A DNA stretch of 64,000 nt from the NCBI GenBank assembly GCA_023382055.1, contig JAMCQN010000147.1:35899-99898 (forward strand), in the 5' to 3' direction. Below are positions 8,883 to 25,060 of this stretch, piece by piece (within the stretch, counting starts at the first letter, position 1; the number at the start of each line of letters is the position of its first letter). Both the position numbers and the translations under genes were made by a program. Below the pieces are notes generated by a model. It worked only from the letters and a program-made list of their open reading frames with translations, made no database searches and was not told the origin of the DNA. The stretch is from Chloroflexota bacterium. Its GTDB lineage: Bacteria; Chloroflexota; Anaerolineae; J036; Brachytrichaceae.

Positions 8883-9548
8883 TCAAACGGGCTGAACCAG
8901 GTCTGAATCGTCGTTTGCAGGCGCATTGACGCGCCGTGAGACAGCAAAGGCCTGCATTTCATCAGCAGGATAGGGCCTCAGTAGCGCCGCCAGTGCAAGC
9001 GGACCGATTGAATCATCCAGCCAGTCCGATTCCATGTAGCGTGGCAAAATGACCGGCATGCGATTATGAATCGGCGCAACCAGTTCGTTTGGGTTTGTGG
9101 TGATGATCGTGCATGTACGTCTGGTCCGCCCATCCGGGGACGTCCATAGCTCCCATAGACCCGCCATCGCGAAAGGTTCACCGGACTTCAGCCGAACCAG
9201 CATGGGCGTCTTGGTTTTCACGTCGTCCTCTTTGCGCCACTCGTAAAACCCGTCAGCCAGGACAAGGCAGCGACGTTTCTTGAATGCGGCGCGGAAGGCC
9301 GGCTTTTCCGGGACGGTCTCGGCGCGCGCATTGATCATCTGAGCGCCGATCGCCGGATCCTTCGCCCACGGCGGTATCAGACCCCACTGCACCGTGGAGA
9401 GCCTGGTCGGTGACTCATTCAACACGACTGGGACGTTCTGCGTCGGAGCGACATTGTAGCGTGGAGCCGGCATCTCATCGGCCGCTTGGAGATGGAAGCG
9501 TTCCATCAACTCCTCGGGGTCGACTGTAACGGTAAATCGTCCACACAT
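8883..9548 (-). CDS. SOS response-associated peptidase (SRAP/YedK/HMCES family)
   Basis: Starts MCGRFTV with conserved Cys2; RYNVAPTQNVPVV, INARAETV, RCLVLADGFYEW, IHNRMPVIL. Confidence 0.95.
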   Translation of the reverse strand: MCGRFTVTVDPEELMERFHLQAADEMPAPRYNVAPTQNVPVVLNESPTRLSTVQWGLIPPWAKDPAIGAQMINARAETVPEKPAFRAAFKKRRCLVLADGFYEWRKEDDVKTKTPMLVRLKSGEPFAMAGLWELWTSPDGRTRRTCTIITTNPNELVAPIHNRMPVILPRYMESDWLDDSIGPLALAALLRPYPADEMQAFAVSRRVNAPANDDSDLVQPV

Positions 9549-9561
9549 GATAATGCCAGTA

Positions 9562-9577
9562 TAGAACTAATGTTCTA
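9562..9577 (-). promoter_or_regulatory. Putative LexA (SOS) box upstream of SRAP gene
   Basis: On the minus strand TAGAACATTAGTTCTA (core GAAC-N4-GTTC, as in the Gram-positive LexA box), followed directly by TATACT (-10-like) and the SRAP ATG. Confidence 0.75.
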
Positions 9578-23414: not shown

Positions 23415-23635
23415 CGGATTCTGTTGGCGAAATTGGTTACGAGAACCCAGACTCCCGGAATCTCAAGCTGAGCTTTGCTCAGCCAGATTCCGGGAGTCTA
23501 TGCGCGGTGGACGCGGATAACGATATCGTCATTCCCCGCTTGCGCGGGGAATCCAGTGCTTACCGCGGCCTCTGGATGCGCTACGCGCATTCGCGGGCGT
23601 GACGTGCCCAGTGGCGAATTCTCCAACAGAATCCG
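23415..23635. repeat. MITE/REP-like intergenic element with 13-bp terminal inverted repeats and internal hairpins
   Basis: CGGATTCTGTTGG (23415-23427) vs CCAACAGAATCCG (23623-23635); internal AGACTCCCGGAATCT/AGATTCCGGGAGTCT (23449-23463/23485-23499) enclosing GCTGAGC-TTT-GCTCAGC; ATTCCCCGC-TTGC-GCGGGGAAT (23531-23552). Confidence 0.65.
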
Positions 23636-23726: not shown

Positions 23727-23742
23727 TAGAACATTTGTTCTA
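23727..23742 (+). promoter_or_regulatory. Putative LexA (SOS) box overlapping a -10
   Basis: TAGAACATTTGTTCTA (core GAAC-N4-GTTC) running into TATAAT (23741-23746), about 10 bp before ATG 23753. Confidence 0.78.
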
Positions 23743-23752
23743 TAATAGGGTG

Positions 23753-25060
23753 ATGGACGCAACTGACAAGTTCGAGTTGTTCGCCGGTTACATGAGCCTG
23801 GAACCGGCGGAAGAGCATACGCCTGCGCAACCCGCGGCTGTGCGCTACCAGTCGAGTAAACGCCATACTTCAGAAATACCTGTGCGCGAGCAGCGCCCCA
23901 TGCCCGCATCGGCATATCAACGCGCGCCCTGCGGCAGTTCACCCGCGGAACTGCGCAGCCTGGTGGCCGAGCCACACACATCTGGTCAACTATCCGCGAG
24001 TGAGGTGAAGAAGAATGCCCTGGGTGTTTCATATGCTGCAATGCCCGGCGGCAAAAGAATCGCGCTGCTAAAAACGCTGCTGACCTCGGCATGCGAGCGC
24101 AACTGTTACTACTGCCCGTTTAGAGCAGGGCGTGACTTCCGGCGGGCGACATTCCGCCCCGAGGAAATGGCGCGCGCATTCATGCAGCTCTACCAGTCCA
24201 GAACGGCGGAAGGCTTTTTCCTGAGCTCGGGGATTGCTGGCGGCGGAATGCGCACTCAGGATAATCTGATTGACACTGCGGAAATCCTGCGCCGCAAGCT
24301 GGACTATACCGGCTACCTGCACCTGAAGATCATGCCCGGCGCCGAGCGCGCGCAGGTGGAACGCATGATGGCGCTGGCGGACCGCGTCTCAGTCAACCTG
24401 GAAGCGCCGAACGCCGCCCGCCTCGCGCGGCTGGCGCCGAGCAAGGTATTCATCGAGGAGTTGCTGCGGCCTTTGCAATGGGTTGAGGAAATCCGCCGCA
24501 CCCAACCTTCACATTTGGGCTGGCGGGGCAAGTGGCCGTCATCGGTGACGCAGTTCGTGGTTGGCGGCGCTGATGAAAGCGACCTGGAAATCATGAGCGT
24601 CAGCGCCGAACTGTATAAGCGCCTGCGACTCTCGCGCGTCTACTATTCTGCATTCCACCCGGTCATGGATACGCCGCTGGAAAACCATCCCGCCGAAAAC
24701 CCCTGGCGCGAGTTCCGCCTGTACCAATCCTCATTTCTGCTGCGCGATTATGGGTTTGACCTGGAGGACCTGCCATTCATGGACTCCGGCAACCTGCCGC
24801 TCGAAATCGATCCGAAAATCGCCTGGGCACAGCACAACCTGACTGAAACGCCGGTTGAGGTCAATAAGGCTGACCGGCAGACCCTCCTGCGCGTGCCGGG
24901 TATTGGGCCCAAAGGGGTCAATGAGATCCTGGCCGCGCGGCGGAGGATGACATTCCGCAACCTGCGCGACCTTCAGAAGACAGGCGTGCTGGCCAACCGC
25001 GCGGCGCCATTCGTCCTGCTGGATGGCCGCCGGCCTGCACAGCAACTCAGTCTGTGGTGA
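23753..25060 (+). CDS. Putative DNA modification/repair radical SAM protein with C-terminal helix-hairpin-helix
   Basis: CERNCYYC (CX3CX2C) after ALGVSYAAMPGGKRIALLKTLLTSA; C-terminal HhH VNKADRQTLLRVPGIGPKGVNEILAAR; C-terminus QLSLW. Confidence 0.88.
   Translation: MDATDKFELFAGYMSLEPAEEHTPAQPAAVRYQSSKRHTSEIPVREQRPMPASAYQRAPCGSSPAELRSLVAEPHTSGQLSASEVKKNALGVSYAAMPGGKRIALLKTLLTSACERNCYYCPFRAGRDFRRATFRPEEMARAFMQLYQSRTAEGFFLSSGIAGGGMRTQDNLIDTAEILRRKLDYTGYLHLKIMPGAERAQVERMMALADRVSVNLEAPNAARLARLAPSKVFIEELLRPLQWVEEIRRTQPSHLGWRGKWPSSVTQFVVGGADESDLEIMSVSAELYKRLRLSRVYYSAFHPVMDTPLENHPAENPWREFRLYQSSFLLRDYGFDLEDLPFMDSGNLPLEIDPKIAWAQHNLTETPVEVNKADRQTLLRVPGIGPKGVNEILAARRRMTFRNLRDLQKTGVLANRAAPFVLLDGRRPAQQLSLW

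Follow-up and report, generated by a model that had tools for sequence, protein, structure and literature searches.

Radical-SAM enzymes in SOS responses and the comparison locus

To our knowledge, spore photoproduct lyase is the only well-known radical-SAM enzyme of DNA repair. COG4277 and TIGR03916, which we take to be the same family, are found at annotated canonical loci in which the next gene encodes UdgX or a TIGR03915 protein, and the UdgX protein examined carries TIGR03915 and TIGR03914 domains. These partners mark the handling of uracil or abasic DNA, where the canonical relatives are thought to act. SOS control of COG4277 together with a COG1573 UDG has been described in Bacteroidetes (PMC8565304), and SOS control of the COG4277 family is also cited there for Verrucomicrobia and Alphaproteobacteria. 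The radical-SAM DNA repair enzyme SplB (COG1533) is likewise SOS-linked in several species (PMC8565304). SOS control was predicted for CAC3343-CAC3344 of Clostridium acetobutylicum (PMC3828012), and an Acinetobacter member of the family was induced on desiccation (PMC13130816). Control of this superfamily by the SOS response is already known in other phyla, and hence is not new; a narrow literature search gave no report of it for Chloroflexota members.

The window analyzed here is the whole 64,000-nucleotide stretch of Chloroflexota DNA, in which positions 23753–25060 (+) encode a 435-residue protein with radical-SAM and helix-hairpin-helix (HhH) domains (Table 1). Its reading frame, CX3CX2C motif, C-terminal HhH (LLRVPGIGPKGVNEILAARR), and RRPAQQLSLW end matched the original prediction exactly by sequence and Pfam. 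The Radical_SAM model of Pfam was matched at E = 1.5e-7 and HHH_3 at E = 6.8e-6 (residues 366–410), the latter with 26.5 bits, slightly below its 27-bit cut-off. The best NCBIfam model was TIGR03916 rSAM_link_UDG (283.5 bits, E = 3e-84), and this was the only TIGR03916-like gene found in the source genome. The score is below the curated cut-off of 343.5 bits and covers profile positions 36–380 only, while the canonical controls L103 and L107 gave 535 and 683, respectively.

Table 1. Features of the radical-SAM gene, its promoter, and its product (window coordinates).
Feature	Position	Strand	Remarks
LexA/SOS box GAACATTTGTTC	23729..23740	+	exact GAACN4GTTC; conserved in orthologs
Putative −10 element TATAAT	23741..23746	+	directly abuts the SOS box; ATG at 23753
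Radical SAM + HhH protein, 435 aa	23753..25060, stop included	+	TIGR03916, Pfam, AlphaFold2
N-terminal helix + LEPAEE motif, residues 3–21	23759..23815	+	conserved in the Chloroflexota clade
Disordered polar linker, residues 22–77	23816..23983	+	pLDDT < 50; length variable in orthologs
CX3CX2C [4Fe-4S]/SAM motif, C114-C118-C121	24092..24115	+	kept throughout: Chloroflexota-type 88/88, canonical 20/20
HhH DNA-binding element, residues 366–411	24848..24985	+	PF12836 HHH_3; P382, G385, R396 invariant
Clamp-binding-like peptide QLSLW, residues 431–435	25043..25057	+	Q431 invariant; tail of low model confidence

The AlphaFold2 model of this protein (pLDDT 87.6, pTM 0.83) contained a confident N-terminal helix (residues 3–11; mean pLDDT 94 over residues 1–10), for which the Chloroflexota-clade consensus is MDxxxKLxxLxxxxxLEPA. 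The polar segment that had been noticed behind it is genuine, as pLDDT fell below 50 at residues 22–41 and 43–77, and the distance preceding CX3CX2C was 46–113 residues in nearly all orthologs. A sequence search of the PDB yielded no relative. By fold, the best PDB match of the model was HydE, followed by HydG, ThiH, BioB, and LipA, and also viperin; these are radical-SAM barrels matched with a TM of about 0.4 by query, and CX3CX2C lies inside a barrel resembling the HydE/BioB/LipA type. The chemistry of the protein cannot be read from such modeled fold matches. Spore photoproduct lyase was absent from the 50 PDB fold matches listed, which gave no evidence of SplB (COG1533) membership, and that assignment was discarded.

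Matches to the protein were obtained in 41 of 60 related genomes; it was not found in the other 19, which indicates that the enzyme is non-essential. The comparison set comprised 66 GTDB loci, nearly all of which bear the label Chloroflexota, and a further 27 loci sampled across that phylum; its canonical relatives came from plasmids, from phage records, and from a single viral contig. Cultured species with an ortholog include Levilinea saccharolytica and Anaerolinea thermolimosa (loci L096, L099). The viral contigs scanned gave nearly nothing, namely a single canonical-type locus (L126). In the resulting tree the canonical proteins formed one side of a long branch with 100% support. The protein shares with TIGR03916/COG4277 the CX3CX2C core, the C-terminal HhH, an SOS-type promoter, and a clamp-like C-terminal peptide; it differs from that family in its sub-threshold score, the lack of an adjacent partner, a variable disordered linker, and the absence of three N-terminal cysteines (YDxSC...CH...GRC). 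These cysteines were present in 20/20 canonical sequences versus 0–1% of the Chloroflexota-type ones; some other Chloroflexota members have a cysteine near the first position, and none has the canonical set. The predicted relation to the UDG-linked family thus stood as a relation to TIGR03916 and not as strict membership, since the protein belongs to a sister lineage outside the canonical TIGR03916 clade.

At the canonical loci L102–L110 and L127–L135 the three extra cysteines are invariant and precede CX3CX2C. They suggest an auxiliary metal site that may accompany the TIGR03915/UdgX partner. In some Chloroflexota genomes the radical-SAM gene is present as two divergent copies (genomes G206, G221, and G150; loci L180, L185, L191, L194, L198, and L200). 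The N-terminus of one group is of the R[FY][ED]xC or GYEAC type, and its C-terminus reads EQLSLW, EQLSLF, EQLTLW, or DQLSLW.

The clamp-like peptide at the C-terminus

Bacterial proteins such as Pol IV, MutS, and Hda carry a clamp-binding motif, of which the pentapeptide QL[S/D]LF and the hexapeptide QLxLPL are the consensus forms. The present family is similar to them in having a flexible terminal Q-L-x-L-aromatic peptide with penta- and hexapeptide variants, and is different in that the peptide sits on a radical-SAM enzyme. A lack of conservation of the terminal pentapeptide would have refuted the original prediction, and this comparison did not refute it: Q431 was one of the 35 invariant columns of a 58-sequence alignment. 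Of the Chloroflexota-type sequences 87/88 retain this residue, as do 20/20 of the canonical ones, while the adjoining residues vary. The last tail position among the 88 Chloroflexota-type members was F in 32, W in 30, and L in 15. The view of W as a plausible variant of F was borne out, and the idea that W breaks the motif was rejected, as the two residues are nearly equally frequent in this column.

A strict pattern, Q[LM]x[LM][FW] within the last 10–15 residues, was present in 44–45 of 91 family members versus none of 1284 flanking ORFs. When the last 15 residues of each member were shuffled, the pattern was recovered in 0.5%, as compared with 43/87 observed. Approximately half of the Chloroflexota-type members fall outside it; some of these end in a variant such as QPxLF, QTxLF, or the QLSF type, and in a few the motif is followed by further residues. 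The peptide recurs in relatives from Chloroflexota, Proteobacteria, Clostridia, and Bacteroidales, and pentapeptide (QLSLF/W) and hexapeptide tails (QLSLGF, QLILPF, and QLALPM) are all found within one family. Canonical proteins end, for example, in PPPRQLSLF (Azospirillum), QYQQLSLF (Lachnospira), QLSLGF (Acinetobacter), and DRQLILPFID (Parabacteroides). Their segment from the HhH to the end is longer and very different in sequence, and the clamp-like peptide is nonetheless kept. Across the superfamily, the linker before the peptide varies in both length and sequence, and such a conserved peptide behind a variable linker is what a short linear motif for clamp binding would be expected to show. 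The distance from hairpin to tail ranged over 47–81, a value to be taken cautiously, as the regular expression missed 41 of 132 sequences owing to failure of its anchor pattern.

The confidence of the AlphaFold2 model was good up to approximately residue 430 and dropped to a pLDDT of about 62 in the last block, which is consistent with a free C-terminal tail. A conserved QLxL[FW] or hexapeptide-consensus sequence is hence located at a flexible end. It occurs on both sides of the 100%-supported branch, so the tail is probably older than the divergence of canonical and Chloroflexota-type proteins. From these sequence comparisons we consider it likely that QLSLW binds DnaN. The dnaN gene was not found in the source assembly, which is 82.7% complete; this looks like an assembly gap, as 29/30 relatives carry the gene, and a same-genus genome has it at G003:C202:15707-16834. 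In the open-access literature, no paper was found on a radical-SAM enzyme with a clamp-binding motif, titles retrieved with "sliding clamp" and "radical SAM" point to other subjects, and none on radical SAM and UdgX appears to treat a TIGR03916-like family. The clamp tail and the partnerless form of the family, as read here from sequence, were likewise found in no open-access paper.

The SOS-type promoter

The SOS control proposed in the original prediction was strengthened by conservation of the box in orthologs and by further boxes in the source genome. Upstream sequence was long enough for 92 orthologs. The box is exact in 47 of them, versus 0.1% of shuffles, and deviates at no more than one base in 76, versus 4.8% of shuffles; it is mostly located 24–27 nt before the ATG. 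In the source genome, GAACN4GTTC occurs in two copies before lexA and also before uvrB and uvrA, both of which were identified from sequence. At uvrB, the box, TATAAT, and ATG are arranged as they are in the gene studied here, and a TATAAT-like hexamer lies at the equivalent place in most orthologs. A box common to the lexA and uvr genes is therefore found at an ortholog-conserved promoter position, and the gene is probably induced by damage, as judged from this arrangement. Given the place of the putative −10 element, the mRNA may be leaderless or nearly so, starting at the ATG. Relatives carry SOS boxes appropriate to their own lineages: GAACN7GAAC was located upstream in 8/8 Alphaproteobacteria and one viral contig, and exact GAACN4GTTC upstream of the Clostridia members L104 and L107 and of the gut contig L133. 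A Y-family polymerase (PF00817) was not found in the 82.7%-complete source assembly; if this absence is real, the SOS response here operates without the usual translesion polymerase.

Proposed role, partners, and alternative readings

These features can be assembled into a mechanism. The SOS box abutting the −10 element would constitute a LexA-controlled promoter of a COG4277/TIGR03916-superfamily enzyme, at which LexA represses the gene until its cleavage after DNA damage frees the promoter. The barrel would hold a [4Fe-4S] cluster and SAM to generate the 5'-deoxyadenosyl radical, and the C-terminal HhH would hold DNA. The flexible QLSLW would fit into the hydrophobic DnaN pocket and so bring the enzyme to clamps located at stalled forks or repair patches; its target there would be a nucleotide that is damaged or modified. 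In Chloroflexota this would be a simpler form, which has neither the TIGR03915/UdgX operon partner nor the three extra cysteines. We favor, with reasonable though not strong confidence, the reading of a radical-SAM enzyme that is induced in the SOS response, is recruited to the clamp, and acts on damaged DNA; a DNA lesion as the substrate is held to about the same degree, and we infer that repair, rather than another modification, is the outcome.

The original prediction proposed that the protein may act alone. The adjoining genes are indeed those for an MFS transporter and a histidine kinase, the latter paired with a response regulator, and no TIGR03915/UdgX gene is adjacent. By profile search, TIGR03915 was absent from the source genome and from 60/60 related genomes, which sets the locus apart from the UdgX/TIGR03915 systems. 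The claim hence holds at the level of the operon; the genome search for a UDG-like partner, however, revealed a non-adjacent family-4 UDG (G000:C17:3291-3917) that ends in EQLSLF. QLSLF-type ends of this UDG follow a variable linker (L147–L176) in 29/30 loci including the source genome, providing independent support that clamp-like tails occur on repair enzymes in Anaerolineae. A search for conserved neighbors in Chloroflexota found none in more than 7 loci. The best neighbor encodes DUF6504 and follows the radical-SAM gene on its downstream side in 7 Chloroflexota loci including L010, three of which have it at a distance of 3–36 nt; on this count the idea of a new and general partner in the operon was rejected.

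The family-4 UDG leads to one alternative, in which the enzyme works with a non-adjacent partner, most likely this UDG: the clamp would be their meeting place, where the radical enzyme would alter the lesion and the UDG would excise it, or the reverse, in replacement of TIGR03915/UdgX. The operons of canonical relatives do include UdgX or TIGR03915 proteins, and in Anaerolineae TIGR03915 is gone while a UDG with an almost invariant QLSLF is present. The UDG nevertheless has an SOS box in 0/30 loci and is matched in 59/60 genomes, many of which lack the radical enzyme, so that it looks like a housekeeping protein and not a dedicated partner; we regard this reading as very doubtful. Another explanation for the conserved end is that QLxL[FW] packs against the body of its own protein or binds another repair protein, and never meets the clamp. 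The closest orthologs also conserve the preceding APFILLDGRRP, by which the whole end could be structural. This is distinctly unlikely, because canonical members keep the peptide behind an unrelated and longer segment, the family uses both forms known for bacterial clamp motifs (the hexapeptides being QLSLGF, QLILPF, and QLALPM), the last residues are modeled with low confidence and unpacked, and the unrelated family-4 UDG ends in a matching peptide in these genomes.

The target might also be something other than damaged DNA, such as a free nucleotide, RNA, or a replisome protein, within the SOS response. None of the nearest solved folds (HydE, HydG, ThiH, BioB, LipA, and viperin) acts on DNA. 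Lipoyl synthase has an auxiliary-cluster segment, and the order in which the canonical three-cysteine N-terminal segment precedes CX3CX2C may resemble it. The invariant P382 and G385 of the C-terminal HhH and the operon association of relatives with uracil-DNA binding proteins argue against such a target, which makes this rather unlikely. To return to the clamp-recruited enzyme acting on lesions, its conserved tail suggests that an uncharacterized type of DNA-repair chemistry is brought to the replication fork. If true, it would represent a second family that is widespread, under SOS control, and physically attached to the replication clamp, with a new lesion chemistry; the function of COG4277/TIGR03916 would become testable, as point mutants of the clamp peptide offer a simple handle, and the Chloroflexota form, having no partner, would be the minimal enzyme to assay. 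A wider proposal, to which we give somewhat less than even credence, is that the whole superfamily is SOS-induced, is recruited to the clamp by its C-terminal peptide, and carries out on fork lesions a radical reaction that has not been described, with Chloroflexota holding a stand-alone form devoid of both the extra cysteines and a partner of the UdgX type.

Other features were recognized in the window. An SRAP-domain (HMCES/YedK-type) gene lies at 8883–9575 (−) with an exact SOS box, GAACTAATGTTC, at 9564–9575, the gene start lying 27 nt away from the box's first base; it is a probable second SOS repair gene in the window, as judged from sequence. Between the MFS gene and the radical-SAM gene there is an inverted repeat with 15-nt arms (23449–23463/23485–23499, 100% identical) and a second with 17-nt arms (23415–23431/23619–23635, 94%). 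These repeats, spanning 23415–23635, are possibly a terminator or a small mobile/REP-like element.
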